NCBI GenBank assembly: GCA_963681505.1
Contig: OY811977.1
Location: 3,882,352 to 3,946,351, forward strand
Reading direction: 5' to 3'
DNA length: 64,000 bases
DNA from: Eunapius fragilis
Taxonomy: Eukaryota > Porifera > Demospongiae > Spongillida > Spongillidae
Part shown: positions 375-56,907 of the stretch, in pieces
Numbering within the stretch: the first letter of the stretch is position 1
Layout: every line of letters begins with the position of its first letter
Program-made: the position numbers and the translations under genes
The notes under the pieces: generated by a model
Databases searched by the model: none
Told to the model about the DNA's origin: nothing
What the model saw: the letters and a program-made list of their open reading frames with translations, nothing else

Positions 375-3011
375 TCAATTCCGCAGTTGGTCTATTGTCT
401 GGGTAGTTGTTGTTCCCTCCATCCTCATTACTTCGGGCCACTTCGAATATGCGTCCACAGCCACCAAAAACATTCTGTTCTCGAAGGGTCCCGCAAAGTC
501 AATATGAACTCGCCGCCAAGGCCCTTCAGGGAACTCCCATGGATGTAATGGTGTAAGCTTTGGATTCCGTTTCATCAATAAGCAACCTTCACATGATCTG
601 GTGATTTCTTCAATGTCCTTGTCAATGCCTGGCCACCATATGTGACACCGAGCCAAACCTTTCATCTTGATGACCCCTATGTGTCCACCATGCAGTTCCT
701 CCAACACTTTCTCTTGCAATTTGTTTGGAACTACCACCCGCATCTCCCACATCAAACAGTCCTGCTCTATTGTCAGCTCATCCTTTCTGTCCATGTATGG
801 TTTCAGGTCTCTTCCAGTTTCAAGGGGCCATCCTTGCAACACAAACTGATACACTTTAGCCAAAGTAGGGTCTCTTTGAGTGTTTATTCTTATGTCTTCT
901 GCCGTCACAGGTAATGGTTCAATTTGCTGAATCGCTAACAGCTTCACTTCTTCTTCTTCTTTGTTGGACCCCAAGTCCTGACTGTTCGTAGGTAGGCGAG
1001 ACAATGCGTCTGCATTACCGTGAAGTGTTGTGTTCTGGTATACTATGTTGAAGCTGTATCCTGACAAGAATACCCCATATCTTTGGAGACGAGCTGCCGT
1101 AGTAGTGGAAACACCTTTCTCAGGATTAAAAATTGCTGTCAGTGGTTGGTGGTCTGTTATCAGTGTGAACCGTTTACCATAGAGGTATTGATGAAAATGC
1201 TTTATCCCCCATATTAAAGCTGTAGCTTCCTTGTCAATTTGGGCATACTTCTGTTCTGATGCTGTTAGGGTACGTGAGGCAAAGGCTATTGGCCGTTCGA
1301 CTCCTTTTGAAACAGTATGCGACAGTACCACCCCCAGACCATAGGGGGTTGCATCACATGCCAATGTGAGGGGTAATTCCGGGTTGAAGTGTGTCAATAC
1401 TTGTTCTGATGTGATCAATGCTTTCACTTCTTCAAATGCCTCTTGGCATTTTGTAGACCACTTCCATGTGGTGTGTTTCTGTAGCAGCGCATATAAGGGC
1501 GTCAGCCTGGTTGACAAGTTTGGGAGAAATCGATTATAATAGTTCACAAGCCCTAAAAAGGACCGTAATTCCGTAACTTTGCTTGGCCTCGGTGCTTCTC
1601 TCACTGCTTGGATCTTGTCCAGCGTCTTATGTAAGACTTCCTTGTCAATCTGATGACCACAAAAAGTGATACTTTCCTGGAAAAAGGCACACTTCTTTGG
1701 GTTTATGGTGAGATTGTTTTTGTCCAGACGTTCCAACACTTGATTAAGTATGTTGAAATGTTCATCTTCATCTCTCCCTGCAACTACTATGTCGTCCAAC
1801 AAACATTGGGACTTCGGTATCCCTTGTAGGATCTGATCCATAGTCCTTTGCCACATCGCAGGTGCAGACGCTATCCCAAAAGCTAACCTGTTATACTGGT
1901 ATAAGCCTTTCTGAGTATTGATGGTCAAAAGTTTCTTTGCCTCATCATCGAGCTCCATCTGGGAGTAGGCTTGTTTTAAGTCAATTTTACTAAACACCGT
2001 ACTGCCTCCCAAACTAGCAAAGATGTCTTCGATCTTAGGAAGGGGGTATTTGTCGATTTTTAGAGCAGGGTTCACTGTTGTTTTATAGTCCCCACACAGC
2101 CTGATCGCTCCATCAGGTTTTGGGACCACCACGATTGGGGTAGCCCACTCACTCCACTCTATGGGGGTTATAATCCCAGCTTTCTGTAGCCGTTCCAGTT
2201 CAGCTTCCACCTTCGCTCTTAAGGAGTAAGGAACCGGTCTAGCCTTGAGGAAGACTGGTGTACATCCTTCCCTTATGTTCAGTTTGGCTTTTGTACCCTT
2301 TAAAACTCCTAATTCTTCTCTTTGCAGGTTTGGGTACCTTTCCATCAGTAATTTCAACCTTGTTGCTCTCTGATTCCCTTCTTTGCACTGTACCGTTTTG
2401 ATCATTCCCCAATCCAGTGGGATAATTTCCAACCAATTCCGCCCTATCAATGGTGGTCCCTGTCCTTCCACCACCAATAGGGGTAATGTCCACTCTTTGC
2501 CTTCCTTCTTCACTCTGACTTGCAACTCCCCCTTGAGGCTTATTTGCTCCCCTGTATATGTCCTTAACCGTGCCTTTGTCTTCTTCATGGGGATATGTGA
2601 AAACCTCTGTTGGTAGGTATTGAGGGGTATTAAGGACACTGCTGTACCGGTATCTAGTTCCATCTTTACTATTTGCCCTTCCACTATGATATCTATGCAC
2701 ATGGGTTTTTTAGAACTCCATTTCTTCCCTATTGTGTTGACTTGACCCCAGTTCACTTGATTTTCTTCTCTCCTTTCCTGATCTTCCTCCTCCTCCTTTG
2801 CAATTTCTTTTACCTTGCTGGCCTTAGATTTACAAACCTTTTCTATATGTCCCCTTTTGTTGCAGCATCTGCACAACTCCTTTTTAAAGTAACATCTATC
2901 TGGCCCATGCCCGTTGCCTCCACAACGATAGCAGCTATTGGCTACTCGGTCAAAGGAACGTTTTGGGTTGTGCGCAGGAATCTTATGTACTTCCGATACT
3001 CCTTCATGCAA
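375..3011 (-). CDS. gypsy Pol segment (zinc knuckle, PR, RT, RNase H, integrase N-part)
   Basis: Open segment of 878 residues with the domain order of Ty3/gypsy Pol. Two CCHC-like knuckles lie near residues 27-62. An aspartic protease site (LDTGTAVSLI) lies near residue 120. Reverse transcriptase fills about 270-450, including the KIDLKQAYSQM and NPKKCAF blocks. RNase H (ACDATPYGLG, TDHQPLTAIF, NADALSR) follows at about 540-680. The integrase zinc domain (HGGHIG then CEGCLLMK) and the first core strand (HIDFAGPF) close the segment. In life this polyprotein copies element RNA into DNA and inserts it. Here it is a fossil part of a broken element. Confidence 0.88.
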   Translation of the reverse strand: MHEGVSEVHKIPAHNPKRSFDRVANSCYRCGGNGHGPDRCYFKKELCRCCNKRGHIEKVCKSKASKVKEIAKEEEEDQERREENQVNWGQVNTIGKKWSSKKPMCIDIIVEGQIVKMELDTGTAVSLIPLNTYQQRFSHIPMKKTKARLRTYTGEQISLKGELQVRVKKEGKEWTLPLLVVEGQGPPLIGRNWLEIIPLDWGMIKTVQCKEGNQRATRLKLLMERYPNLQREELGVLKGTKAKLNIREGCTPVFLKARPVPYSLRAKVEAELERLQKAGIITPIEWSEWATPIVVVPKPDGAIRLCGDYKTTVNPALKIDKYPLPKIEDIFASLGGSTVFSKIDLKQAYSQMELDDEAKKLLTINTQKGLYQYNRLAFGIASAPAMWQRTMDQILQGIPKSQCLLDDIVVAGRDEDEHFNILNQVLERLDKNNLTINPKKCAFFQESITFCGHQIDKEVLHKTLDKIQAVREAPRPSKVTELRSFLGLVNYYNRFLPNLSTRLTPLYALLQKHTTWKWSTKCQEAFEEVKALITSEQVLTHFNPELPLTLACDATPYGLGVVLSHTVSKGVERPIAFASRTLTASEQKYAQIDKEATALIWGIKHFHQYLYGKRFTLITDHQPLTAIFNPEKGVSTTTAARLQRYGVFLSGYSFNIVYQNTTLHGNADALSRLPTNSQDLGSNKEEEEVKLLAIQQIEPLPVTAEDIRINTQRDPTLAKVYQFVLQGWPLETGRDLKPYMDRKDELTIEQDCLMWEMRVVVPNKLQEKVLEELHGGHIGVIKMKGLARCHIWWPGIDKDIEEITRSCEGCLLMKRNPKLTPLHPWEFPEGPWRRVHIDFAGPFENRMFLVAVDAYSKWPEVMRMEGTTTTQTIDQLRN

Positions 3012-14700: not shown

Positions 14701-17700
14701 TCAGACCTGTGAGTGAACAGCAGTTTACATGTCATGTATGATGTATGTTACATGTAAATGGGCATTGAGTGATGCTCCACTAATACACATCTACACTACT
14801 TCGCATATTGTACATGGATCTGACATTAGGAGGTTGCAATAATGTTCTTGTATCATCATACATTGTACTTCCTCTGCATATGTAGAAAAAATTCTATTTT
14901 ATGGGATTTTATCCTTCGAAACATGCAGGCTTTTTTGCTATTTTGCAGTTTTGAACTGTTCAATTCTAGTGCCTTAAATACATACCTGCAAAATCAAAGA
15001 TTATGTAAAAATGAAGCATAGATGCAGCTGTATTCATGCGCATGTTTTCATGTATGTATGCAATATGATACTGGCACATGATTGGTTGGTGTGTATGTAG
15101 ATGTTCTGCGTCCCATTTATAAATTATATTCGTAAATTGATTATTACATGTACATGTGCATTAACTTCCTAGAAACCCTGCAGTTCTTTGGACTGTTCTG
15201 ATCATTTTCCGGCTGGTATCGATTGTGTTTCTAGAGACCTGTTTTGCAGCACAGTGTCTGCTAATCAATAACTCTGTCAGTAGTGACAAGCTTGGATCTG
15301 CCAATGGACTTGCTGTTTCTCTATCTGATATTTTCAGGTATTTATGTTTTGCTGTGGTCTGGAATGGTGGTTAGGTTACAGGTGGGGGTTGTATGTGTTA
15401 TGCCACATCTGGGAATTGATCATTATAATTAAACATCATTTTGAGTATTTTTGCAATTTTTTTACACTGTCAAACTTATTTCTAACATGTTGTGATTCTC
15501 TTTACTGATATCAGTACTTAATATAAACCCAAACTTCTTCAACTCATACACACACAAATACAATTTAAATCATACGGAATACAAATTACCAGCCGCACAC
15601 CAAGTAAATATAAGCATATATATATATACACAATGTATAAAACTTTAATGCCAGCCATGTCCGCGCATGTAATGGAGCCAAATAACTGTACAGATGACAG
15701 GAACAATCAGAATCAGCAACTACAACAGTAGCACAATATATGTACCTATGCTCACTTAATATGACACCTTTGACATGGCGGTCATACATATCTTTCCGAC
15801 AGAGTTGTTCCTGACGTGAACATTCCATTACTCTTGCATAGTCTTGCTGCAACTGCCTCTTTTATTCATAGCAGTACTGATGTTCTGATGTATAGCTCTC
15901 TACAGGAAGTGAGTACCTCACGTTTTCTGATAACCGAGGATCTCTTCCAAACATAGGGAAAAAGTTAGTAATCCCTGTAGTTTCGTGCTTGCATGGCCTG
16001 TAGGCAGGATGCAATGTTGAAAGCTGTAGATCTCAAATTATCGGAAACAACTATACTGAGCATGTCAATCAACGTTATTAAAACGTTCGACGTGGCCATC
16101 CAACTCAGGATGATAAGGGGTGGTCTGAGTCTTCTTCACACTGGTCAAGCTGTTGGCAGATGTCTCTGATAAGTCCCGACTCAACGTTCCTGCACTGGTC
16201 TGTTTTGAATACTATCTGGGATAACGGTTGGACAAATTATTTCATTCACAACCATCTGAGCAATCGACCTTGCTTCCATGTCGGCAAAGGGGAATGCTTC
16301 CTTCCACTTTGTGAAGTAATCACTTACAAGTATGTATCAATTACCTCATGAGATTATAGGGTTAGGTCCCATGATGTCCATGGTGATTCATTGCAATGGC
16401 CATTCTGTTCTGCTTCCACGCTGAGCTGCAACATTGTTCTGTTCTTCAATGGACTTCCTTGAGGTACACACAAGGCAGTCTGTACACTACTTATCAACCT
16501 CCTTCTGCCCTGGCCAATAAAAGTGAGCACATACCTTCTCCAATGTGAATTGCTAGGTTGAATTTGCTGGACGTTGTTATGGAGTGAACCTGACTCCAAC
16601 CACAGTCCTGAGATTGGCATCTGCTTCCTAACGATTCCTATTATCCTGATTGGGCTAACAAGGTAGAAAGGAAACTTCTGCTGCCATTATAACTTCTTCC
16701 TCTTCCTCAATCTCATGCAACTAACATCCTGTCCACATTGACAACACTGTCCGTGAGAAAGAGCATCTGCATTACATTGCTGCTTACCTGGTTGATATCC
16801 TACTTCATTGCAATGTTGAATTTGATGGACATTGGATAGCCACACTCTCCAGCCATCTTGCCACCTGGCCCTCAGGCTCTTTGAAACTACAATGCCATTG
16901 CAAGTCACCAAAATGATTATTTCGGATATATCAGTGGTGTGGTGTGTAGTAAATATGAACTTTATATATATAAATCCACAAGGCCCTTTTTCTTGTAGAA
17001 AGTTCCATATATATATATATATGGGACAGTTCACGAGAAAATGATAACTCGCTTTTATACTTATAATGTTATAAATTTTCCTTATGTTTGAATCGCTATA
17101 ACTTCCCAACGGTTTAGGCTATCGACCTCCTATTTACAACACTTCATACCACACCATTTCTCTATGGTAAAACAGATTTTGGTGTCTTGCACTTGCTCTG
17201 TACCAGTACTGCAACGTTCTATACCCCATCGGGTTCAAACCCGCCATAACTTTCTGTAGGAGTAATCAAATCGCTTCAAATTCGGTTTGTAGGTAGAAGG
17301 GTCCTACACCAATCGATTTGTCCTGTTCGTTAATTTTCATGTCATCCGTTACGGAGATACAGCGCCGCAAAGTTGGTACAAGTTTCCCGCTCGAATCGCG
17401 CCGTTGCATGTGCGTGAACCGCTTCCATTCACCGAAGCACATGAATATTCAACTATTTCCTGTGGGTTGGGACTTTGTTAACCTAGCCACACCTATACTG
17501 CACTGCGCTGGGTAAGTATTTTAAAAATCTATCGTCCCTGTCACTGTTGTTATTCGTTGTTCTTCGTTAGAGATAAGCGATATGCTGATGTATCAAACTA
17601 CTGAAGACGAGCTCGTAGTGCTTCATTCGGCGGACGTTTTCGATCTGTACGAATACGACGATCGATATTTTAAAAAGATACAATCAACGAAGATGGGAAG

Positions 17701-18473
17701 ATTGAGAACGGTAGTGATGACGGTCGTCCCACTGAAGATGCTGGTTGTAGGGAGTAGGTAGCCCCTAAATCACTAAAGGAGCCTCCAGCCCCACCCCCAC
17801 TTACGGGGCTATAGCTCCTTCACTGAAAAGTGGACTTCAAAGCCCCACATTGTACATCCAGACAGCAGCCCCACATAACCGTCCGATGCCATGCAGAGCC
17901 ACCAGCCAACTCGCAGTACCTATGGAACCACCTGCCCATATCAGACACTACACAGGGGCCACCAGCTAACCAATGGGGTCAGCCTCCACAATACCAGTGG
18001 TGACACCAGCCAAATGCATTTGGCAGCCCCCCCAATTTCAGGAGAGTCGTGAACTACATGTACTTGTACTAAGGGATTGCCACACATGTCCTCTCCCGTG
18101 TAACACTACCAGTGGGTGTTACATGTACATCTAGCAGAACCAGCTGTGTCCAGGGCCCCCCTTTACATGCACACACAATTTCAGGGTAGCCATGAGCTCA
18201 TGAACTGGCACCAAACATGCCGCTTAAGCAGCCCAGGGGCCTACCAGCTCTGCAATATCAGTGAACCACACTGCAAGTGAACATGATAGCCTCACACTGC
18301 ATGTTCAGTCAGCAGTACCTACACAACCAGCAGCTGCCACATAACCAAGATCCAATGGGGTCCTCACAACACTGCCAATGGAGACATCAGCAAGTGGAGG
18401 GACACTGAGGCCAGCCACAATGGCCCCCTATCGTAAAGTTGAGTCAGCAGTCCAGGAACCAATGCCGACCCCC

Positions 18474-18504
<31 letters not shown>

Positions 18505-19054
18505 ACACTCCGCACACACTACCTATGCAATGCCTCTACAATGCCAGTGGAAATTCTAGCCCTCTCACTGCAAGTTGATCATCAGCCCAAGTCTAGTCCC
18601 ACACAGTACAATCACTGCTCACTTCAATGGAGCCACCAAATCCACTACCTGTGTAACCATTAACCCCCACACTACAATTGGACTTACTGTCAAGGGAACT
18701 ATAAACTACTAGTAGAGCTACCAGCTCCTATTGGACAAATGAAAGCACTACAATTGTACATGTCTGTGTATCTGCACTTTGTGTTGTGGATCTGTTTGTT
18801 CATGTACAGAGTAATCTTATCTAGGAAGCCATGCATCAGTGGTGAAATAATTACCTGCCCTATCCGTACGATTGTGGTTGGTCTGCACCCGTGGTAGGTT
18901 TATCTAAACAAATGAACAAGGCTTGCTTTATACAAAACTAGTGCTTTACATGTAGCATTTGAAGTAGCATTTGAATGTCACATGAATTGTGCACAGTGAA
19001 GGCATCAGAATTAATGCACCACACAAGTTGAGTTAGCAGTTGGAGGCCCCTGAA

Positions 19055-19086
<32 letters not shown>

Positions 19087-22000
19087 AGCCTATATCAGTC
19101 GTAGGCATCTCCACCAGCTTGCATTATTGTGGTCCATGGACTATTGGAGAGGTAGTGGGCAGGAGAGGTTTTGGGGCTGGTCCCAGTGTGTGGGGCACAG
19201 TCACTCGTTCCTTCTGGCAGCCATATACCATCATTCTAACAGCATGCTTGTGCAGTCCTTCTGATGATAACAAGAGAAGGGAACTCAGTTATTTGCTCTA
19301 TAGGAAACTCAGGCACAGTATCACAACAAAACAAATTGATTGACCGTGGAGTGTTTTGGCAAATTGAAAAAAGCAGATTACAAAATGCCGCCTTTGTAAA
19401 TTTAAAATGCCACACATCTGTGTGGCGAGTTCTAAAAAGAACTTTATAAGGTGTCCCCTTAACGACACAAATGTAAGGTGTACAGGTGACCCCTTAACGA
19501 CACATACAAAAGGTGTACAGAGATGACCCCTTAACATGGTGTACAGATGACATCTTAACGACTCATACATAAGGTGTACAGAGATGACTCATAACAACAC
19601 ATATGTATGGTGTACAGGTGACCCCTTAACGACACATACATAAGGTGTACAGAGATGACTCTTAACGACACATGTGTATGGTGTACAGGTGACCCCTTAA
19701 CGACACATACATAAGGTGTACAGAGATGACTCTTAACGACACATGTGTATGGTGTACAGGTGACCCCTTAACGACACATACATAAGGTGTACAGAGATGA
19801 CTCTTAACGACACATGTGTATGGTGTACAGGTGACCCCTTAACGACACATACATAAGGTGTACAGAGATGACTCTTAACGACACATGTGTATGGTGTACA
19901 GGTGACCCCTTAACGACACATACATGTATGTAAGGTGTTCAGGTGACCCCTTAGCGACACATACATAAGGTGTACAGAGATGACTCTTAACGACACATGT
20001 GTATGGTGTACAGGTGACCCCTTAGTGACACATACATAAGGTGTACAGAGATGACTCCTAACAACACATATGTATGGTGTACAGGTCACCCCTTAACGTG
20101 AACTGTCCCAATTACACAGTTCACGCGAAAATGATAACTCGCTTTTGTGGGTTGGGACGTTGTTAACCTATAGCCACACCTACAAAGCAGGATACAATTT
20201 ATTTATCGACAAGCGGCGGTGAGTATATTGAATCTGTCCGGTCTTACCTATAGACATTTGTTATTCGTCATCTTCAATTCGTGTAGATAAAAAATATGGC
20301 GAAGTCTGACGACGAGCTCGTCGTGTATCATTCGAATGGCCGGTACGATAATTGGGATGTGGATGGTGATGACGGTGGCACCAATGCCGATGGAAGTTAT
20401 GATTTCGATGGCTATGGCTGTGAAAGCGACGGTGATGGTGGAAGCGACGGTGATGGTGGAAGCGACGGTGATGGTGGAAGCGACGGTGATGGTGGAAGCG
20501 ACGGTGATGGTGGAAGCGACGGTGATGGTGGAAGCGACGGTGATGGTGGAAGCGACAGTGATGGTGGAAGCGACGGTGATGGTGGAAGCGACGGGGACGG
20601 TGGAGGCGACGGTTATGGTGGAAGCGACGGGGATGTTACAAGAGATAGTGATGAGGGCAGAGGTGTACCTGCAAGAACAGCTCGTGGGCGATGTCGTCCA
20701 CGTCGCATGCTCAATGCCTACCTCACTAGAGGAGGGTGCTGCACAGACAGCTGCTTATTGAAGTACGGTGACTTGCCCAAAAGACGAGCACTCACATTAT
20801 CCAGATTGGACAAGAAAACCAGAAAGGCAGTCATTTTTGGAATGCTTGCTGTGATTCGGGACAAATCTGGTTCTCGAAATACATTCCAGTATCGCCTTGA
20901 CTGGTCCAGTCCTGTCTGCAAAGATGCTTTCTGTGCTGTCATTGGCATAAGTTACCCTACATTGCACCGTTGGATGAAGCAGGTGTGCTCTGACTCTGAT
21001 GTTGAGCCCCATCCCCATGGCAACTGTGGCAGGGCACCTCACCATGCCCTCTCTCGTTTGGACAAGAGCAGGGTGGTCTCATTCATTAGGAATTATGCTG
21101 CCATAAATGCCCTCCCTGACCCTGGTCGATTGCAAGGGACGATCAGAGACTATGTTCTGGAGAGTGGTAAAACACTAAAGTCTGTGTATGCCGAGTATTG
21201 CAAGGCCATGGAGTGCATATCAAACACCACACCAGCACCACAGCAACCTTGCCCTTACCGATTGACCACTCGGCTAAAGCGGCAGTACACCTTGCTCAAT
21301 GCTCCTCCAGCTCTTCCTACACCTACTGCTGCACGTGTGGTGAAGTATGTGTCATTTATTACACTCTGGCGCAGGTACTGCTATAACATCAAGATCCAAC
21401 CTGCACGAAGCGATCTGTGCGACAAGTGTGATCAGATGTTGGTCACGTTGAGGCACAGCCTTTCTGACGAGCAGCGCAAAACAATAAATGACAAATACAA
21501 CCAGCACCTCCTTAAGGCCAAGGCATTCCGTGATGCCTACAATGCAAACATTGAGGAGGCTAAGAAAGAATGGGGAAGTAAGGGACAGAAGGAGCGTCTG
21601 GGTGACTTGGAATCCAGGGCTCTGATGTCTCCCTTCACCTCACTCACCCACCTGGACATGCAGATGCAGTACTCCTTTGACTACTGCCAGCAGGTGTCAC
21701 TGACCTACAGCTCACAGCAAAGGGACACTTTTTATTTCAGGACACCTCGCAAGGTCCAGGTGTTTGGTGTGTGTTGTGAGCCGCTGTCCCGCCAGGTGTT
21801 CTTCCTAATTGACGAGGCAGAGCAGGTCGGCAAGGGTGCCGTGGTGGTGGTCAGCCTGGTGTATGCCTTCTTCCACCTACATGGACTGGGAGAGAGACGT
21901 GTAACACTTCAGGCTGACAACTGTGTGGGCCAGAACAAGAACACCACCATGATGTGGTACCTGGCCTGGTGGGTCATCACTGGGCAACATGACACCATCC

Positions 22001-25000
22001 AGCTGAACTTCATGGTACCTGGGCACACAAAGTTTCGACCAGATGCCTACTTTGGTCAGTTTAAGAAATACTACCGAAGACAGGACCATGTAGATGACAT
22101 GGACGACCTAGCGGACTGTGTCCGGCAGTGTGGCCAGAACGTCACATGTGTGCCACAGCTATACCAGGACTGGCAGTACTACGACTGGAACGCCTTTCTG
22201 GGCCAGTGGTTTAGTCCTTTGGCTGGCCTAGGCCGCTGCTACACATTTGAGTTTGACCGCAAACACCCTGGTGTCATGAAAATGAAGACCTTACCATCGG
22301 ACACAAACCCCACCGAGGTGGCCATGCTGAGGGCTGGAGTGGCCATAAAGGACATATAGGAGGCTTATCAGAGCCAAGTGATGCCACCTGTTATTAAACG
22401 CAGAGGATTATCCCTGACGCGGTCACTATACCTCTATGAACGTGTGAGGGAATACGTTCGTGACCCCCAAAAAAGGGACAAGGTGTGTCCAAAGCCTTCA
22501 CCAGGCACAGGGCCCGACTCTGGTAATGCTTCATCCCTACCGGAAAGCGACCAACCTGGACCGTCAAATGCCACTCCTCACTCACCTCCTGTTAAGGGTC
22601 ATGAGTCTGCAGAGGACACATACAGTGAAGTGCAAGACGGAGGTGATTGTTGTGTTTTTGGCAGGAGGAAACGCAGACCCAGGTCTGAACTGATTCTTGC
22701 CTACCAGTGCACTGTATGTGGCAAGAAATATGCCAGTGGCCCGGCCCTGTCCCTGCACAAAAGGAACACTCACAAGCAGCCTGCTGTTCCAGGTGATGAA
22801 CACGGTGGTGCAACTAAGGTGGACAATTCCAGTGGTGCCACTAAGGCGGACAATTCCAGTGTTGATGTAGGAAGCCAGGGTCCATCCAAGCGCACACGTA
22901 GGAAAAAATCTGAAATTGACAGGCCATTTTCCTGTTCTGTGTGTGGCAAGCAGTACGGCACCAGTGGCGCTCTCTACACTCACAACAAGACCAAGCATGG
23001 TTCATTGTAATGAACCAGATTGTGAGAAGCATGCTTTGTATGTAGTTTAAGGTCATCTCTGTACACCTTATGTATGTGTCGTTAAGGGGTCACCTGTACA
23101 CCATACACATGTGTCGTTAAGAGTCATCTCTGTACACCTTATGTATGTGTCGTTAAGGGGTCACCTGTACACCATACACATGTGTCGTTAAGAGTCATCT
23201 CTGTACACCTTATGTATGTGTCGTTAAGGGGTCACCTGTACACCATACACATGTGTCGTTAAGAGTCATCTCTGTACACCTTATGTATGTGTCGTTAAGG
23301 GGTCACCTGTACACCATACATATGTGTCGTTAAGAGTCATCTCTGTACACCTTATGTATGTGTCGTTAAGGGGTCACCTGTACACCATACACATGTGTCG
23401 TTAAGAGTCATCTCTGTACACCTTATGTATGTGTCGTTAAGGGGTCACCTGTACACCATACACATGTGTCGTTAAGAGTCATCTCTGTACACCTTATGTA
23501 TGTGTCGTTAAGGGGTCACCTGTACACCATACATATGTGTTGTTATGAGTCATCTCTGTACACCTTATGTATGAGTCGTTAAGATGTCATCTGTACACCA
23601 TGTTAAGGGGTCATCTCTGTACACCTTTTGTATGTGTCGTTAAGGGGTCACCTGTACACCTTACATTTGTGTCGTTAAGGGGACACCTTATAAAGTTCTT
23701 TTTAGAACTCGCCACACAGATGTGTGGCATTTTAAATTTACAAAGGCGGCATTTTGCAATCTGCTTTTTTCAATTTGCCAAAACACTCCACGGTCAATCA
23801 ATTTGTTTTGTTGTGATACTGTGCCTGAGTTTCCTATAGAGCAAATAACTGAGTTCCCTTCTCTTGTTATTATCAGAAGGACTGCACAAGCATGCTGTTA
23901 GAATGATGGTATATGGCTGCCAGAAGGAACGAGTGACTGTGCCCCACACACTGGGACCAGCCCCAAAACCTCTCCTGCCCACTACCTCTCCAATAGTCCA
24001 TGGACCACAATAATGCAAGCTGGTGGAGATGCCTACGACTGATATAGGCTCCCCCCCCCCCCCCCCCCCCCCCCAATTTCAGGGGCCTCCAACTGCTAAC
24101 TCAACTTGTGTGGTGCATTAATTCTGATGCCTTCACTGTGCACAATTCATGTGACATTCAAATGCTACTTCAAATGCTACATGTAAAGCACTAGTTTTGT
24201 ATAAAGCAAGCCTTGTTCATTTGTTTAGATAAACCTACCACGGGTGCAGACCAACCACAATCGTACGGATAGGGCAGGTAATTATTTCACCACTGATGCA
24301 TGGCTTCCTAGATAAGATTACTCTGTACATGAACAAACAGATCCACAACACAAAGTGCAGATACACAGACAGGAGCTGGTAGCTCTACTAGTAGTTTATA
24401 GTTCCCTTGACAGTAAGTCCAATTGTAGTGTGGGGGTTAATGGTTACACAGGTAGTGGATTTGGTGGCTCCATTGAAGTGAGCAGTGATTGTACTGTGTG
24501 GGACTAGACTTGGGCTGATGATCAACTTGCAGTGAGAGGGCTAGAATTTCCACTGGCATTGTAGAGGCATTGCATAGGTAGTGTGTGCGGAGTGTGTGTG
24601 TGTGTGTGTGTGGGGGGGGGGGGGGTCGGCATTGGTTCCTGGACTGCTGACTCAACTTTACGATAGGGGGCCATTGTGGCTGGCCCCAGTGTCCCTCCAC
24701 TTGCTGATGTCTCCATTGGCAGTGTTGTGAGGACCCCATTGGATCCTGGTTATGTGGCAGCTGCTGGTTGTGTAGGTACTGCTGACTGAACATGCAGTGT
24801 GAGGCTATCATGTTCACTTGCAGTGTGGTTCACTGATATTGCAGAGCTGGTAGGCCCCTGGGCTGCTTAAGCGGCATGTTTGGTGCCAGTTCATGAGCTC
24901 ATGGCTACCCTGAAATTGTGTGTGCATGTAAAGGGGATGGGGGGGGGGGGGGGGGCAATTCCACCTGTAGTGTGATGGCTGGCATCTCCACCAGCAAGTA

Positions 25001-28000
25001 TTATTGTGGGGGTCCACAATGACTCCCTGGGGAGATTGGCAGCTGGTGACTCCCCTGCCTGCTGGTAGTCTGATAACTCCATCTGTATAGCTGTAATACA
25101 TGTAGCTCCACAATGCTAACTGGACCTGCAGTGTGGGGCTATTTTAAGTTCACTTGCATTAATGGTTCCAATGATACTGTCCGCTTGCTGTAAGGGAGAT
25201 GGCCATCACTGTGGTCCTGGGGCTGTTGGACAGGTAGTGGGCAGGAGAGACGTGGGGGCTGGTTGCAGTGTGTGGGGCTTATGCAGTGAGGGCTAATGGT
25301 TCCACTATTTGGACAGGGGCAGGTGTATGTACAGTACATGAAGAACATGGCTTCGCCTGAAATTGTTCACGAGGACTACTTGTAGTATAAGGGCTGGCAT
25401 CTGACCTAATGACCCCTGCTGGCAGTGCAGGGTCTGGTAAATCAATCTGTAAGAGGTCTGGTGGCTAGTGTTTTCTTGGATAGTGGGGGTATGTGTGGTT
25501 CCAGTGCATGGTTTTCAAAACATTGTGGGGGGTGCCAATTCCACCTGCAGTGTTAAAGCTGCCATCACATTGTTGTGGGGGCCCCCAATGACCCCTGGGA
25601 AGTTTGACAATTGGTGGCTCCCAAGCTTGCATGCTGGCAGTCTGATAACTGCGTCTGAATCGGCTCCACTGGTGCTAACTGGATCTGCTTTAAGTCCACT
25701 TGCAAAAATGGTTCTACTGATACTGTCCGCTTGCAGTGAGAGAGCTGGTAGGGGTATGGCCCATTGGTACCTGGGCCGTTGAATCAACATACAGTGAAGA
25801 AATAGGTAGTGGGAGATAGGGCCATGGGCTGGCCCCTATATGTGATGGTTCCATGGGTTGAGGGCATGTGTAGCTCCAGTTTATGGCACCCTTGAAATTG
25901 TGGGGGTACTGATTTCTGATAACTCCATCTGTAATGGCTCCACTGGACCGGCAGTGTGGGGCTTGCATTAATAGTTCCAATGATACTGTCCACTTGCAGG
26001 GAGGGTACTCAGATAGCTGGATGGCCCCATTGGTCTTTGGCATGGGCTGTCGACTCAATGTGCAGTGAAGGACAGGCGGTGGGTAGGAAGGCTGTAAGGG
26101 GCTGGTCCCAATGTGTGGGGCAGGGCTAATGGTTCAACTGGTAGCATTTGGAGAGGGGCAGGTTAGTTGATGGCTTCTCCTGAAATTGTGGGGACTACAT
26201 GTAGTGTGAGAGCTTACATCTCTACTGGCATCATAACTATTCATCCAGGTGCTAGTCTGGGCAGCCCTGCTTGCAGTGGCTTTGGGTTCACTACTTGCAA
26301 TGTGGAGGTATTAAAAGTAAGTTCCCTTGCATCATGAGGCTGTTACGTTCCCTTGCAGTGATGGGGCCTGGTGGTTCTGCTGTGTGCGGACGGCTCAATT
26401 GGCCCCACTGGCTCCTTCAAATTGCAGTGAACGATCACTTGTATCATGCACCTGTAGTGAGAGGGCTGGTAAAAGCATGGCCCCTGGGCTGCTGACTCAA
26501 CTTGCAGTGAAGGATAGGTAGTGGGAGTTAGAAGAGGGCTAATGGTTCCATGGGTCGTGGGGGGCATGTGTGGTACTAGTTCATGGCTCCCCTGAAATTG
26601 TTGGGGGTGCCGATTCCACTTGTAGTGTGAGAGCTGGCATCTCCACAAGCATGCATTGTTGTGGGGGCTCCCCATGAACCCTGGGGAGTTAGGCAGTTGG
26701 TGGCTTCCCTGTCTGCTGGCAGTCTGATAGCCTCCTTCTGTAATGGCAGCCCATTGGTATTAACTGGCCTGCTGTGTGGAGCTAATAAGTCCATTTGCTT
26801 TAATGGTCGCAATGATACTGCCACATATTGCAGTGATGTGAGAATTGGTAGGGGGATGCCCCATTGTACCCTGGGCTGTTGACGCAATGTGCAGTGAAGA
26901 ACAGGTAGTGGGCAGGAGAGCCGTAGGGGCTGAGTGAGGGCTAATGGTTCCACTGGTATTTCTTGGAGAGGGGCAGGTGTACGTACAGTACATGTACTTC
27001 ATGGCTTCCTCAGTCTGAAATTGTGGGGACTGCTTATACTGTGAGGGCTGGCATCTCCTCTGATATAATACGTATTGACCCCTGTTTGTGTGGGCACCCC
27101 TGCAGGCAGTACAGGGTCTGGTAACCCCATTTGTAAGATGGCTGGTGGTTCTACTACTTGAAGTGTGGTAGGATTAAATGTAAGTTCAAACTATCGTGAG
27201 GCTATTAAGTTCACTTGCAGTCATGGTGGTTCTGCTGTGTGGGATGGCTCCATTTGCCTCATTGGCCCCTTGAACTTCCAGCGAATGATCAATAGTAGGG
27301 GTGAAGTGACCCCGGGGGCTGGATCTGGGGGGGGGGGGGGGGGGGGGGGGCCTGGACACAGCTGGTTCTGCTAGATGTACATGTAACACCCACTGGTAGT
27401 GTTACACGGGAGGGGACATGTGTGGCAATCCCTTAGTACAAGTACATGTAGTTCACGACTCTCCTGAAATTGGGGGGGCTGCCAAATGCATTTGGCTGGT
27501 GTCACCACTGGTATTGTGGAGGCTGACCCCATTGGTTAGCTGGTGGCCCCTGTGTAGTGTCTGATATGGGCAGGTGGTTCCATAGGTACTGCGAGTTGGC
27601 TGGTGGCTCTGCATGGCATCGGACGGTTATGTGGGGCTGCTGTCTGGATTTACAATGTGGGGCTTTGAAGTCCACTTTTCAGTGAAGGAGCTATAGCCCC
27701 GTAAGTGGGGGTGGGGCTGGAGGCTCCTTTAGTGATTTAGGGGCTACCTACTCCCTACAACCAGCATCTTCAGTGGGACGACCGTCATCACTACCGTTCT
27801 CAATCTTCCCATCTTCGTTGATTGTATCTTTTTAAAATATCGATCGTCGTATTCGTACAGATCGAAAACGTCCGCCGAATGAAGCACTACGAGCTCGTCT
27901 TCAGTAGTTTGATACATCAGCATATCGCTTATCTCTAACGAAGAACAACGAATAACAACAGTGACAGGGACGATAGATTTTTAAAATACTTACCCAGCGC

Positions 28001-31000
28001 AGTGCAGTATAGGTGTGGCTAGGTTAACAAAGTCCCAACCCACAGGAAATAGTTGAATATTCATGTGCTTCGGTGAATGGAAGCGGTTCACGCACATGCA
28101 ACGGCGCGATTCGAGCGGGAAACTTGTACCAACTTTGCGGCGCTGTATCTCCGTAACGGATGACATGAAAATTAACGAACAGGACAAATCGATTGGTGTA
28201 GGACCCTTCTACCTACAAACCGAATTTGAAGCGATTTGATTACTCCTACAGAAAGTTATGGCGGGTTTGAACCCGATGGGGTATAGAACGTTGCAGTACT
28301 GGTACAGAGCAAGTGCAAGACACCAAAATCTGTTTTACCATAGAGAAATGGTGTGGTATGAAGTGTTGTAAATAGGAGGTCGATAGCCTAAACCGTTGGG
28401 AAGTTATAGCGATTCAAACATAAGGAAAATTTATAACATTATAAGTATAAAAGCGAGTTATCATTTTCTCGTGAACTGTCCCATATATATATATATATAT
28501 ACATATCTACAGGGTTTATACAGGTTTTAGAATCCTGGAAAGGTTTGTACTAATCATTTAGATGTTTTCAAAGGCCCAGCAATGTTTGAAATATGCCTAG
28601 CCATGAACATATTTTTGGAAAAGGCCACTGCCGATTAACTTAAGGTAGTAGTACCCATAACGTGGTTTTTTTTGGAAAAAAAGTTGGTAAGATCCACCTT
28701 ATTGTTTAAGATATGCCACCTTGATATCATTTGGATAAGTAACGTATTTAACCGAGCGCAATGCCTTAAACTTAGGCATCCGCCATCTTGTAATTCGCGC
28801 ACGCATGCGCAGTTTGAGTCCGCCATGTATTTTGGGGTCTGAATTATTAAAATACGTCATCAACAATTGGTAGTTCTGTTCAAGTACCGTATATAATTCG
28901 GAGAGAATCCACCTTATTGTTTAAGATATGCCACCTTGATAGCATTTCAATAACGCGCAGAAACACTAGCACCGCTTGTTTTACGAGCACCTTGAAATAC
29001 GAACGGTAAAAACTCTTTTTCCTGCACATTCAGGACAACAGACCTTATGATCAAGTGCTGAGCATATTATTACGATAGGAGCTAAGCACCAAGAAGAGCG
29101 TACGTGTAGGAAAATATCTTGTCCTTGTTTTCAAAATAAGTTACTTTTTTCTAAATAGCCGAAAACCGAAAATCTATCTATTAATAACATTTCAATTTCA
29201 AGGTACAAATATGGCGTCCAGGGATGCGTAACTTTGTAAAAAATTGCTGTACATTTGTGGAAAAGGGTAGTAACGTTATCGATGCACCAAAAGGACAATT
29301 AAGTAATGAAGAACGTGTAATCACGATAAAGTAGCTGTTCTGGATTGCCCAGCATGACTAATCCATGAGTAGTCTAATTAGTTCACCCTGAAACGATGGT
29401 TAGTATAAGCTTTGGCACAAACCTACTGCTCCGTTTCGAAACGAATGCACCAAACGAAAGAAGATATTATTTCATATTTATCCTCCAAATTTGGTGATTT
29501 TTAAGCACTACAGTTTTCAACAAACCAATTATAAAGTTTTGTTCTTAGAATATTTGTACCATTTTTACTGCTCATCTAATAACTGTCAAAATGATACGGT
29601 CCTCTAAGATGCTCTCAGGCTACAAGCTAGTATGATTTTTTTTCAAATTCCAGGAGGGTACCCTATCACCTTAATGAATCATGCATGTGCGTTTTTCAGA
29701 TCTTGGTATTATTTAATAGAGAAACATTATTCTTTTCGAACGCGTAGAAAAGAAAGTGTTTTCTTAGTCGGTACTGTACTTGCAAACAGTACATCACTTT
29801 TCATATCCCCTACATGCAGTGCAGTTATACCTGGAGAATTTTAAAAAGCGCGAGTTGTGAGTGGCACTTCTATCGATTGAGCGTACCCTAGTTGATGCCA
29901 GTATCTGCGTTATTTGTAATAAGTTTTGTACCATATTTTTCCATGTTATAGTTGTGAGCTTGCAAGCGTGTGCCACAATGCCTGGGTTGTGTTTGTTTAA
30001 TGATGCTTGGCTAACAGAAGACGTCTTTATGATTGGGTTTGCAGAGATGTTGAAGACCAGCATGTTGCATTGTGTAAGGTTTGCAAAAAAATCTTTCTCA
30101 ATCAAAACGATGGGCCAAGCTGCTCTTCTTAGTCATGCTGAGGGGGAAAAACACCAGCATCTCCTTGCTTTAGCCTTACAGAGAGCACAATCAAGTATAG
30201 TTGACTTCCTTAGTAGTATTGCTGAGAAATCCGCTTTATCAGGAAATAGAGCTGAAGATCATTGAAGCAGAACTGAAATCTACGCTTGAAGAATTAAAAA
30301 CTTACTAGTCATCGTATGTCTTTCATCATCCAGATATTCAGTTCTGCTATTTTGGTACAAGGGAATGGGAGGGTACTGTTTTGGAAAACAGTTGCCGATA
30401 TTTGTGAATAGTTAAGGGAACATTAGAAATTAATAAATAAAAGAGCTGTACGAACCCTGTATCTAGCAAAACGAAATAGTGCATACTTTTTCTCATGTAT
30501 CAGAAAATGTTGAACAAAAAACTATGTGACAATCGTTGCCAACATTATCACAGCTCAGACAATGTAAGGGCCTAACAATCAATACTGAAACAGTCCAGAA
30601 TAATGATTGTACGAGTCTTTACTCAAATACATGTACATGAATACATAGGAACTCGGTTCACAATGTTTACTCGTTATTGGATCACCTATTTTCGGTACTC
30701 CTATTAAATGAGCCACCTATCTTTAGAGATGCATAATCTGTTTATCCATGCTGTAGTAATTGTTCAATATTGCCATGGCCCCCATATCATCAATGAGGGC
30801 CAGCACCTTCTTGGGAACCAGAGCTGGCCTCAGGCATCACGTACTGAAACCACTGGCAAGATCTCCTTCAAACTGATTTTCTCCTCTCCATCAGTTCGGT
30901 AACACATGGTAGCAACCCACCAGCTGAACACCTATAACGTCTGAATATACCTGACTTTTGCCTGATTCTGTTCCTCGCAACAGCACTAGGTCAAAACGAA

Positions 31001-38823: not shown

Positions 38824-40761
38824 TCATGGCCCTGGAACATCTGGAACTAGTTCAATAACAGGTTGTCTATCCTCAGGCTCCATTGGTACAATGGGAGGTT
38901 GAATATCTTCATTGTGATCACCAGCAAGATACCTTCTCTGCACCCATAGGGAAGATAGTTTCCAAGACACACCTCTCGGGCATTTGTCCGGGAAGGTATT
39001 CATCTCCAGCCAGCTGATCATCTGATGTAGGTCAGGGCCAGAACTCTGTTGATCCTTAATCTCCTCTTCAGTCCAAGCTGGTAACATGAGGTGTGATACA
39101 GCATTACAGGGTACGGTTTCATCCTCTTCCTCCTCCTCCAGTCCACACTGGCTGCACCTGCCACGTGATAATGCATCAGCATTTGTGTGTCGCTTACCTG
39201 CACGGTGCACCACTTTGTAGTCAAACTCAGATAGTACTTCCAACCAGCGGGCAACTTGCCCCTTCGGCTCCTTGAATTTGTGTAGCCATTGCAGAGAATG
39301 ATGGTCTGTTCGGAGAACAAACTTCTTCCCATAGATGTAGGGCCGGAAATGACGAGCAGCCCACACCAAGGCAAGCATCTCCCGTCTTGTGGCACAATAC
39401 TTCCTTTCTGACCTGCTTAACGCCCTGCTGGCGTATGCCAGTACCCGTTCTTCTCCATTAGTCATCTGAGAAAGCACAGCACCCAGACCATCCCCACTGG
39501 CATCTGTGTCTAAAACAAAATCCAAACTGAAGTCAGGCAAAGCAAGTATTGGTGATGACATGAGTGGTTTTTTTAGCTCAAAAAATGCATTATTACACCC
39601 TTCAGTCCATACCCACTGTGCACCTTTCTGAGTTAAGGCATGCAGAGGGGACGCCAATTGAGCAAAACTCCTTACAAAACGTCTGTAGTATGACGCAAAA
39701 CCCAGGAAACGTTGAAGGTCAGTCTTATTCCTTGGAATGGGCCAGTTGGCTACACATGATATTTTTGCTGGATCAGTCCTAACACCTTCACCTGAAATTA
39801 TGTGACCGAGGTACTGTACACTAGTCTGTAGCAATCGGCACTTTTTAGGCCTGATCTTCAGCCCCGCCCCTTTCAAACGTGCGAACACGTCACTAAGCTG
39901 CGCTAAGTGCTGTTCAATCGACTTACTAAAATTGATAATATCATCAAGATAGACGAGACACGTAGTCCAGTGCAGTCCAGCGAGAACTTGTTCCATGAGC
40001 CGCTGGAAGGTTGCTGGCGCATTGCACAACCCAAACGGTATCACGCGAAATTGAAAAAGCCCAAACGGTGTCGCAAACCCCGTCTTTTCCCTGTCCCGAC
40101 TGTCCACCTCAACTTGCCAATAGCCACTGGCCAAGTCTAAAGTTGAAAAGTAACAGGCTCCTCCCAAGGCATCCAACGTATCGTCTATCCTAGGAAGTGG
40201 TTGTGCATCTTTGCGCGTAAGATCATTAACCCGGCGGAAATCGACACAAAATCTAGTGCTACAGTCTTTCTTCTTTACTAATACGATAGGCGATGCCCAT
40301 GGCCCACAACATGGCTCAATAATTCCCCGGGACAACATGTCATCAATTAACCCACGCACTTCTCCCTGTTGATGGAATGGTAGTCGTCGAACAGGCTGGC
40401 GGACAGGAAGTGCATCTGACGTGTCGATGCGATGGCCCAGCAGTTGGGTACAACCTAGATCATTATCATTTAAGGCGATGACGTCTTGGTACTTCCACAA
40501 AAGTGCAGCCACGCTCTCCTGGACACCCGGCGCCAGACTGGAAGTCATCTGACCAATAGTATCCTTGATGGCCTGTTTAGGTCTCGACTGCTTGCGTGCA
40601 AGCTGTATCTTAGCACAATCAACAATAGAGTGCAACATACCTACCCTCACGTTTTCATGTACAGTGACAGGTGCAAAACGTGGGTTCATCACCTGGACCA
40701 TTGTGTGGTTGGCAACTGCATCTGTGATAGAATGAGCAACAAGAAGACCATATGCATGCAC
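38824..40761 (-). CDS. Pol (RT and RNase H) of the young gypsy element
   Basis: 645 residues. Reverse transcriptase at about 120-310 shows WASPIVLVKKKDCSTRFCVD, FSTLDLASGYWQVE, FGLCNAPATFQRLMEQVL and CLVYLDDII. RNase H at about 400-520 shows LDTDASGDGLGAVLSQ, YGKKFVLRTDHHSL and NADALSRGRCSQCG. The sequence after RNase H is Pro/Glu-rich. It copies element RNA to DNA. High similarity in plan to the remnant at 15580-17015. Confidence 0.88.
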   Translation of the reverse strand: MHAYGLLVAHSITDAVANHTMVQVMNPRFAPVTVHENVRVGMLHSIVDCAKIQLARKQSRPKQAIKDTIGQMTSSLAPGVQESVAALLWKYQDVIALNDNDLGCTQLLGHRIDTSDALPVRQPVRRLPFHQQGEVRGLIDDMLSRGIIEPCCGPWASPIVLVKKKDCSTRFCVDFRRVNDLTRKDAQPLPRIDDTLDALGGACYFSTLDLASGYWQVEVDSRDREKTGFATPFGLFQFRVIPFGLCNAPATFQRLMEQVLAGLHWTTCLVYLDDIINFSKSIEQHLAQLSDVFARLKGAGLKIRPKKCRLLQTSVQYLGHIISGEGVRTDPAKISCVANWPIPRNKTDLQRFLGFASYYRRFVRSFAQLASPLHALTQKGAQWVWTEGCNNAFFELKKPLMSSPILALPDFSLDFVLDTDASGDGLGAVLSQMTNGEERVLAYASRALSRSERKYCATRREMLALVWAARHFRPYIYGKKFVLRTDHHSLQWLHKFKEPKGQVARWLEVLSEFDYKVVHRAGKRHTNADALSRGRCSQCGLEEEEEDETVPCNAVSHLMLPAWTEEEIKDQQSSGPDLHQMISWLEMNTFPDKCPRGVSWKLSSLWVQRRYLAGDHNEDIQPPIVPMEPEDRQPVIELVPDVPGP

Positions 40762-40831
40762 AAACTCTTCGCTATACTAGCACCCCAGCTGCAGACTTAG
40801 GTCCCGTCATCTTTACAGGCAAACACATCTG

Positions 40832-42211
40832 TCAGTGACTGTTTGGTGGAACCGTTACCTTTTCACTCAGTGCAACAAAGCATACAGGGGTATTATGTTC
40901 AATACATACAGATGACACAAAATGTACAGGCCCTTGCTCTGTGAACATAATCTTCTGTTGGAGGTCTAAAACACAGCCATGACGCATCAAAAAATCTGCA
41001 CCAAGAAGACATTCCTGGTGTAGATTTTTTGCCACCAATACTACATGGTCTTTTGACAAGGGACCCACTGCTATCTGGACGGTGCATTGTCCAGTGATAT
41101 TTAGTTTTCCTCCATTTGCAGCAACAACCATATGTACTGGTGCCTCCAATTGACAAGCACCTCCTGATTTAGCCTCTACCCATACGTCTTCCCTCACTAG
41201 CGTAACCGCAGAACCGGTATCGACTAATATGTCCGTAACATGACCTTTAATGGAACCCTTAATCATTAAGGTGGAACTTACAGCCGCTGAATCCACTGAA
41301 CTCTTCTTCCTCGATGGACAATTTCTCTTCAAATGTCCTCGTTCTCCACAGTTCCAACAGACCGCACCTGGCTGCTTACGTGGATAGTTTGAAGGGCGTC
41401 TTCGCCTATCGTCCACACCTAAGCCTCGGCCAGGTTCCAACTGCTGGAGCTGCCTCTTTAGCTGTTGGACGAGTTTTTCAGACTCCTGCACCTGCCTCCT
41501 CAGCCTCTCCACAGTCTTATCTCCCTCTCCGCGTTCGACAGTCGCAGCTATCTCCTTGAAGTCACCGTCACATTTTGTCGTCTCCTTTTCCACCGCCAAT
41601 GTTTCCTGAGCGCGTTGTCTATACAACCTCTTTTGCGCTATCTCTACAGCTTCTTGCTGCGTCGCTAGCATAAGCGCTTCCTCGACTGACTCAGGCATCT
41701 CTTTCATTAGTCGCAGCTGCGTACTGGAGAAATGAACACCTTGAATAAACTGGTTTCTTACCAATTCAAGACGTTGCTCCATGGTCCACCCGGGATATGC
41801 TCTATCTGCCAACATGCGCAAATGTCCGACGTACTCTACCAGTTGTTCGCCTGAATTCTGCACGCGTCGCTGAAATTTCGCCTGCCATTCTAACTGGTTA
41901 CCCTCCGGAGCGTACTGTGCTCGGAGACACTGCGTCACCTCCTTGTAGTTCTCCGAAGCCACGAGGCCTTGTTGCGAAACAAGCCTGAACGGACCCTCTG
42001 CCAGCAACGGAAGAAGCTCCTTTGTCCACCGTCTCTCTGGTATCTCAGCTTGTGTCACATACATCTCGAAACGAGTCAGCCACAACACCAGGTCCGTCGC
42101 TTCTGTAAAGTGGGGGGGAGGCCTTAAGCTCATCCTTACCGCTTGTACTTCCGGAATTAGCCGTTCCTTGCTATCGGCCGAGCGCTCCGCCGTATCCATG
42201 GGTTCTACCAT
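40832..42211 (-). CDS. Gag-protease of the young gypsy element
   Basis: 459 residues. A Gag capsid-like region (LWLTRFEMYVTQAEIPERRW and FQRRVQNSGEQLVEYVGHL) is followed by a coiled-coil-like stretch (VERLRRQVQESEKLVQQLKR). Next come one CCHC knuckle (CWNCGERGHLKRNC) near residue 290 and an aspartic protease site (LVDTGSAVTLV) near residue 335. It starts just inside the primer-binding site. The downstream Pol frame differs, as in families that use frameshift or read-through expression. Confidence 0.85.
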   Translation of the reverse strand: MVEPMDTAERSADSKERLIPEVQAVRMSLRPPPHFTEATDLVLWLTRFEMYVTQAEIPERRWTKELLPLLAEGPFRLVSQQGLVASENYKEVTQCLRAQYAPEGNQLEWQAKFQRRVQNSGEQLVEYVGHLRMLADRAYPGWTMEQRLELVRNQFIQGVHFSSTQLRLMKEMPESVEEALMLATQQEAVEIAQKRLYRQRAQETLAVEKETTKCDGDFKEIAATVERGEGDKTVERLRRQVQESEKLVQQLKRQLQQLEPGRGLGVDDRRRRPSNYPRKQPGAVCWNCGERGHLKRNCPSRKKSSVDSAAVSSTLMIKGSIKGHVTDILVDTGSAVTLVREDVWVEAKSGGACQLEAPVHMVVAANGGKLNITGQCTVQIAVGPLSKDHVVLVAKNLHQECLLGADFLMRHGCVLDLQQKIMFTEQGPVHFVSSVCIEHNTPVCFVALSEKVTVPPNSH

Positions 42212-48098: not shown

Positions 48099-48835
48099 TT
48101 ACCATGGTGCCTTCACATGGGTACACTGGCTATGGTGCCTTCACATGGGTACACTGTAGCTAGCTATGGTGCCTTCACATGGCTACACTGACTATGGTGC
48201 CTTCACATGGGTACACTGGCTATGGTGCCTTCACATGGCTACACTGACTATGGTGCCTTCACATGGGTACACTGGCTATGGTGCCTTCACATGGGTACAC
48301 TGGCTATGGTGCCTTCACATGGGTACATTGGCTATGGTGCCTTCACATGGGTACACCGGCTATGGTGCCTTCACATGGGTACACTGGCTATGGTGCCTTC
48401 ACATGGGTACACTGGCTATGGTGCCTTCACATGGGTACATTGGCTATGGTGCCTTCACATGGGTACACTGGCCATGGTGCCTTCACATGGGTACACTGGC
48501 TATGGTGCCTTCACATGGGTACACTGGCTATGGTGCCTTCACGTGGGTACACTGACTATGGTGCCTTCACATGGGTACACTGGCTATGGTGCCTTCACGT
48601 GGGTACACTGACTATGGTGCCTTCACATGGGTACACTGGCTATGGTGCCTTCACATGGGTACACTGGCTATGGTGCCTTCACATGGGTACACTGGCTATG
48701 GTGCCTTCACATGGCTATGGTGCCTTCACATGGGTACACTGGCTATGGTGCCTTCACATGGGTACACTGGCTATGGTGCCTTCACATGGCTATGGTGCCT
48801 TCACATGGGTACACTAGTTATGGTGCCTTTGACAA
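48099..48835. repeat. 28-bp minisatellite
   Basis: About 26 units of 28 bp (GGTACACTGGCTATGG then TGCCTTCACATG), with a few short-unit variants near the right end (GGCTATGG directly after CACATG). Because 28 is not divisible by three and the unit has no stop, all three plus frames stay open, giving long spurious frames. Confidence 0.95.
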
Positions 48836-56407: not shown

Positions 56408-56907
56408 CAGCGGCGGATACAGGTTTTGGGGGGGGGGGGGGGCACGGATGGTGGGTGTGGCTGGGGGTGGGGTCGGCTTCTGGCCCGATACGAAAAGCGG
56501 GGGGGGGGGGGGGGGGGTGCTGTCGGTTTATGGCCCGATACGAGGAGCGGGGGGGGGGGGGGGGGGGGGTGCTGTCGGTTTATGGCCCGATACGAGGAGC
56601 GGGGGGGGGGGGGGGGGGGTGCTGTCGGATTCTGGCCCAAAACGAAGAGCGGGGGGGGGGGGGGGGGGGGGGTGCTGTTGGTTTCTGGCCCGATACGAAG
56701 GGCGGGGGGGGGGGAAGTATGATCGCGTATCGGGGGGCCCGGGATATAGTACAGTAGTAGAGTTCATGCGTGCGGATATCAATAGACAGCGCAATCGTGC
56801 AGCTATATTATAAAATGCGGCCCGAAAAGTTATGAATTTATTAATGAAGGGGGGGGGGGGGGGGGGGGGCACGTGCCCCGAGTGCCCCCCCCCTGGATCC
56901 GCCGCTG
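56408..56907. mobile_element. 500-bp G-rich TIR element with CACAG target repeats
   Basis: The ends CAGCGGCGGATACAGG and CCTGGATCCGCCGCTG are inverted repeats. CACAG flanks both (56403-56407 and 56908-56912), a 5-bp target duplication. It has the same terminus and target-repeat length as the element at 34218-35931, so one family. The interior carries a VNTR and long G runs. Confidence 0.75.
56478..56715. repeat. VNTR of GGCCCGATACGAAGAGC plus G-run
   Basis: Five units of about 55-65 bp: GGCCCGATACGAAGAGC-like, a run of 9 to over 20 G, then GTGCTGTCGGTTTAT-like. The unit occurs once or twice in the related element at 34218-35931 (GCTTTTCGTGTCGGGTC, inverted). Open frames here encode only Gly- or Pro-rich artefacts. 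Confidence 0.85.

Follow-up and report, generated by a model that had tools for sequence, protein, structure and literature searches.

The window analysed here is a stretch of 64,000 nucleotides from the sponge Eunapius fragilis (C7:3882352-3946351, in a genome that spans 219 Mb and 24 contigs), and it contains at 17023-28482 a real copy of a DNA transposon, termed W, whose features are collected in Table 1. The motif GGGACAGTTCACG starts at the first base of W and its reverse complement ends at the last one, as the original prediction of a giant mirrored transposon had described. The two mirrored arms, estimated there at about 3.1 and 5.4 kb, measure 3033 bp on the left and 5431 bp on the right by chained alignment. 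The outer piece of this alignment pairs 16994-18161 with 27344-28511 at 99%, including 29 bp of TA-rich flank, and the inner piece pairs 18158-20098 with 23041-24940. Over the 1168 and 1928 bp aligned in this way the arms show 19 mismatches, and the gap in length between the arms corresponds to about 2.4 kb confined to the right arm. Two 71-bp tandem arrays in opposite orientation bracket the coding centre, also in agreement with the prediction. Long inverted repeats with internal tandem repeats, the trait of foldback-type elements, are thus present in W, and they are found as well in a second copy, B.

The original prediction had proposed that other copies with the same ends be sought in the host genome, and these are located at different loci. 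The 13-base end motif occurs exactly 403 times genome-wide (181 forward and 222 reverse), and the reversed pattern, used as a control, gave 1 + 0. Of the first 100 occurrences, 52 can be joined into 26 convergent pairs (<20 kb; 0.8-16.4 kb apart), compared with a mean of 0.87 pairs and a maximum of 4 in 500 runs of random placement. From the 26 pairs, 16 were read whole (L039-L054), together with a relative termed D, read in two stretches, a copy termed T1, read whole, which belongs to a head-to-head pair on C1, and the partner of T1, read partly. The W subfamily comprises three copies at separate loci, namely W, B (C7:6838674-6852141, read whole) and C (C3:12300817-12314171, read at the ends and centre, with its arms known from search hits).

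The alignment of the copies, likewise proposed in the prediction, defined the ends and revealed a target duplication of 4 bp. The flanking 4-mers are identical on both sides in 20/20 copies with both flanks read (L039-L054, W, B, C and D), and in a control with swapped flanks they agree in 8/42. The seven copies that do not sit in TA runs all match over exactly 4 bp (7/7) and none over 3, 5 or 6 bp (0/7), the duplicated words being AATT (three copies), ATTT (two), ATAT (one) and AAAG (one). With this length of 4 bp, the duplications differ from those of 8-10 bp of the Mutator-superfamily foldback type. Thirteen of the 20 copies sit in TA runs. The TA runs beside L041, L045, L049, L052 and D are edged by sequences resembling the ends of other elements, e.g. 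TGTCCC(AT)n or (AT)nGGGACA, and thus insertions may cluster in shared TA runs.

The relative D (C3:740701-757084; L055, L056) has a length of 16384 bp, an inverted repeat of 384 bp and an intact open reading frame (ORF) of 889 aa. The spacing between its 5' and 3' subterminal marks is 15595, 15595, 15594 and 15760 bp at C3, C6, C6 and C7, respectively, and its gene stretch recurs in four further copies with 0, 9, 0 and 1 differences in 3537 bases. Matching mark distances together with near-identical gene stretches demonstrate that the short-armed D multiplied recently; its outer flanks were read for the C3 copy only. One D-type gene on C6 lies within a tandem repeat of about 15.1 kb, and a lone D 3' mark with no partner was observed on C12.

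Table 1. Features of transposon copy W, in window coordinates
Feature	Position	Strand	Remarks
Whole element, copy W	17023..28482	+	11460 bp, between TA runs, ATAT on either side
Left arm	17023..20109	+	GGGACAG at 17023, CTGTCCC at 20109; without about 2.4 kb of the right arm
Outer terminal part	17023..17410	+	Over 351-389 bp, aligns at 72-78% with either end of the nine other copies compared
Gene-start remnant within left arm	17464..17660	+	TEDELVVLHS..., cf. SDDELVVYHS at 20296
71-bp tandem array, left	19458..20084	+	
Internal end-to-end junction	20097..20125	.	CGTGAACTGTCCC-AATT-ACACAGTTCACG
Transposase ORF, 687 aa	20296..22359	+	Acidic repeat N-terminus; DUF7869 at residues 488-665
210-aa ORF with two C2H2 fingers	22378..23010	+	Matching stretch in B shares the DUF7869 open frame
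Right arm, 5.4 kb	23041..28482	-	From arm alignments
71-bp tandem array, right, inverted	23047..23679	-	

The DUF7869 protein

The large ORF in the centre of W matches the profile PF25273 (DUF7869) with an E of 3e-16 and 60 bits, the curated cut-off being 26, and the C2H2 tail that had been attributed to this core is found in the adjoining ORF. The frame of W stops at an in-frame TAG (22357-22359), at which copies B and C are open. In B the frame remains open through the end of both C2H2 fingers; in C it passes the position of this TAG, yet ends early without the fingers. The DUF7869 profile is matched by 7/7 aligned proteins, in which six aspartates are invariant, D344, D423 and D465 being so in 7/7. 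The aspartates in SFD, ADNC and PGHTKFRPD, picked by their context out of the six, are likely to represent the catalytic three. The conserved aspartates may correspond to the DDD catalytic triad of Sola transposases. The contexts of the last two chosen aspartates recur with weak scores in distant DUF7869 genes (LQxDN..NKN and GHT...D..FG). With each exon counted separately, there are at least 90 DUF7869 matches in the genome. In a second group of genes, distant from the first (L009-L017, L023 and L037), the DUF7869 matches are broken by stops or introns.

Among the Pfam matches listed there was no THAP or P-element family that would point to the P superfamily, nor any MULE family. A search of solved structures with a single protein returned nothing beyond four weak hits on chains of antibody or galectin type, and with the alignment the best 60 of 72 matches fit the zinc-finger end of the profile and none the core. 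In viral contigs and prokaryote genome contigs there were 59 and 14 pattern matches, respectively, with alignment A1, and no relative was found there by tblastn; in the control for the pattern scan 0 of 14 genomes matched. Literature searches found no paper on DUF7869 and none on GQNKN together with a transposase; for composite elements or macrotransposons there was one paper, on maize. For copies of PF25273, a domain of unknown function, the present study provides a likely function as a transposase, with defined ends and target duplication.

Length, likeness and junction of the arms

The inverted repeat was measured in 20 copies (L039-L054, W, B, D and T1) and ranges from 384 bp to 5.2 kb, the arms of 5.2 kb occurring in B together with an open transposase frame. 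The 71-bp unit is present in 6/20 copies, on both sides in W and B and on one side in L040, L047, L051 and T1, and was not found in the remaining 14 of the 20 measured. The one-sided array adjoins the 3' end of the gene in 4/4 copies. Inner arms are common to subfamily members only; the outer 351-389 bp are shared more widely. The original prediction had suggested that giant arms with inverted satellites might distinguish an undescribed group, and this part of it is not supported: a relative that multiplied recently and whose frame is intact has arms of just 384 bp. The giant arms are secondary and do not define the group. The 3' subterminal 691 bp of D form 12 mirrored pairs among 40 places scored of 514 candidates, L042, L049 and L052 included. 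In two groups, the array-bearing one and the D-related one, the long arms duplicate the 3' part of an element.

The likeness of the arms was counted site by site. Between W and B there are 10 copy-specific sites, at which the arms agree within each copy, 0 arm-specific sites and 10 sites private to one arm. From 15 such pair comparisons, nine show copy-specific and zero arm-specific sites (W/B, L039/L046, L048/L039, L047/L051, L042/L049, L042/L053, L052/L054, L042/D and L040/L047), one is mixed and five are contrary. The ratio of copy-specific to arm-specific sites reaches 72:0 in L039/L046 and 59:0 in L048/L039, and L042/L049 has one site agreeing between opposite arms. Supporting and contrary comparisons are both present, so the arms are homogenised or renewed in episodes, and the contrary pairs (5/15) led us to reject a universal rule of homogenisation.

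In 2/20 copies, B and L039, the mirror symmetry extends into the host DNA. All the flanking bases read in B, 300/300 per side, are mirror images, and in L039 52 flanking bases are mirrored. The next longest exact mirror runs are 19 bp in D, where GGG from adjacent ends is counted in, and 18 bp in L043. The mean exact flank run is 14.2 for own versus 6.2 for swapped flanks, TA runs contributing much to it. The flank sequences of B and L039 are also found elsewhere, at 7 and 10 places respectively, with no mirrored counterpart, which leaves a palindromic parent repeat unsupported as their source. Palindromic targets as a general rule were also rejected, because only B and L039 of the 20 copies are mirrored far past the TA run. 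Repair copying past the element end would explain the mirrored host flanks, and in B these may also be an artefact. Mirrored host DNA of this kind may connect transposons with the origin of palindromes.

The junction on the inner side of the left arm, common to W and B, is an addition to the original prediction. It consists of two outward element ends around AATT, a word also met as target duplication, and its arm-side joint occurs at three genomic places, one each in W, B and C. This internal pair of ends suggests that the element may have arisen as a head-to-head composite. On C1 (24133179-24157331; L057, L058) two 12-kb copies lie head-to-head across 16 bp of AT; the second, of which 7535 bases were read, is a 100% mirror of the first, either as a real palindrome or as a read artefact.

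A single genome thus offers arms of 0.4-5.2 kb whose likeness can be quantified at individual sites, plus two cases of mirrored host DNA, which makes the origin of Foldback-like arms directly testable.

Elsewhere in the window, 38824-42211 (minus strand) contains LTR-retrotransposon-like ORFs encoding a gag zinc knuckle with protease and a reverse transcriptase with RNase H, and T1 holds a stretch 65% similar to this region. A further ORF at 375-3011 (minus strand) carries reverse transcriptase, RNase H and integrase zinc-binding domains. A 28-bp minisatellite of about 26 copies lies at 48104-48829, and a 50-bp repeat with long G runs, of about 5 copies, at 56463-56714.

Proposed mechanism and competing explanations

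We propose, as the explanation which we consider likely, that these copies form a cut-and-paste DNA transposon family with a DUF7869 transposase and 4-bp A+T-rich targets, whose secondary arms arose as a composite and were later kept alike. In this mechanism the transposase is probably of the RNase-H type, with a catalytic centre of three aspartates; it would cut at the GGGACAG ends, and the C2H2 fingers would serve in DNA binding. Insertion would take place into 4-bp A+T-rich targets, frequently ATAT in TA microsatellites, a preference suggested by the location of the copies. The arms of the W subfamily would represent two copies of the 3' part of the element, one of them inverted. By the simplest route, a deletion derivative may have landed head-to-head beside a transposase-bearing copy, the pair moving afterwards on its outer ends. 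Recombination or break repair between the arms may then keep them alike, or make them so, in many copies, and the repair copying would sometimes overrun the end and produce the mirrored host DNA observed in B and L039.

Several points weigh against this proposal. As to the enzyme, six aspartates are invariant and the selection of three is our own choice. As to the duplication, in 12/13 of the copies in TA runs (all but C) 4 bp is indistinguishable from longer even lengths, and B and L039, with their mirrored flanks, are weak witnesses. The ratio of copy-specific to arm-specific sites is 3:70 in L041/L045, 13:69 in L045/L050, 31:33 in L043/L050 and 2:11 in L040/T1; in L044/L046, 39 sites agree between opposite arms versus 9 copy-specific ones, and L041/L043 is mixed, with 37 copy-specific versus 27 arm-specific sites. 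The pair comparisons share copies and hence are not independent, and a fresh arm duplication in each lineage would also yield copy-specific sites. The proposed 3' origin covers the array-bearing and D-related arms; those of the L039-L046 type lie outside it, as no parent encoding a transposase was among the copies read for them. Furthermore, the inner worn 5' end is found in W and B and not in C, and a search of the genome for a separate parent carrying the arm-side junction found none.

The lack of such a parent makes the growth of the arms inside one element a serious rival, to which we concede a little less than an even chance. Here, internal DNA would have been recruited during the repair that follows a break or excision, with no second element, a process described for Galileo in the available part of PMC3573991. 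The wide variation in arm length fits this route, and the mirrored flanks of B and L039 point to copying that ran beyond the element; however, the outward element ends around AATT in W and B would follow from two elements but are not predicted by plain recruitment. It is very improbable that the mirror symmetry is an artefact of assembly or of reads. The mirrored flanks of B, of at least 300 bp, and the perfect head-to-head mirror on C1 could stem from fold-back reads, but the same arrangement around a transposase centre occurs at three loci (W, B and C), the flanks of C are unmirrored (exact run of 4 bp), and the arms of W differ by their mismatches and by the 2.4-kb deletion. Misassembly is thus unlikely for W and C, and the judgement is less certain for B, in which the flanks are mirrored too. 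The spread of the copies by passive segmental duplication, instead of transposition, is scarcely credible: the tandemly repeated D-type gene on C6 and the reading of the outer flanks of D at C3 alone would leave room for it, whereas in every copy of the set the 4-mers directly abutting the two ends agree, and the flanks differ among copies.

The identity of the element is a separate matter, and we give slightly better than even chances to its being a Sola2 transposon with little unusual beyond the arms. The conserved aspartates may speak in its favour. Moreover, 4-bp A+T-rich duplications including ATAT and ATTT are reported for Sola2 in the accessible text of PMC3627910, and 6/7 of the duplications outside TA runs (AATT, ATAT or ATTT) are of this AWWT type. 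On the other hand, one of the seven is AAAG, the inverted repeats given in that text are of 12-21 bp and the present ones of 384 bp to 5.2 kb, and the likeness is drawn from published descriptions; the passages of PMC10294476, PMC8227079 and PMC5199201 contained no Sola sequence or end motif for comparison. The stronger proposition, that DUF7869 with C2H2 fingers marks an undescribed lineage which time and again builds and renews its giant arms by end-onto-end fold-back repair and at times turns host DNA into palindromes, appears doubtful to us.

Comparison with known long-armed elements

Within the literature searched, from which most subscription journals and Repbase fell outside, nothing was visibly about such an element. 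According to the portion of PMC3573991 available, long arms are a convergent and changeable trait across different superfamilies. Galileo, of the P superfamily in Drosophila, shares with the present family long and highly variable inverted repeats, internal tandem repeats and inverted recruitment; in that portion (PMC3573991), however, its arms reach at most about 1.26 kb, and the longest ones do not occur in any nearly complete copy, compared with 5.2 kb in the open-frame copy B. Galileo also has another transposase, and its duplications are of 7 bp instead of 4 bp. Tetris, a Foldback element of Drosophila virilis, likewise carries tandem repeats within its inverted repeats, but the accessible text of PMC4079207 describes units of about 220 bp, duplications of 8-10 bp and no transposase-bearing copy found, whereas 71-bp units and a transposase gene occur here. 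MuTAnT, a Mutator-like element of Medicago, is also inserted in TA microsatellites according to PMC4486113; its transposase is mudrA-like, the present one of the DUF7869 type. What seems to be new is the combination of a DUF7869 transposase, 5.2-kb arms with an open frame and mirrored host flanks. The giant mirrored arms take a known transposon habit to an extreme, in a form that is unusually easy to read, and do not amount to a wholly new kind of element.

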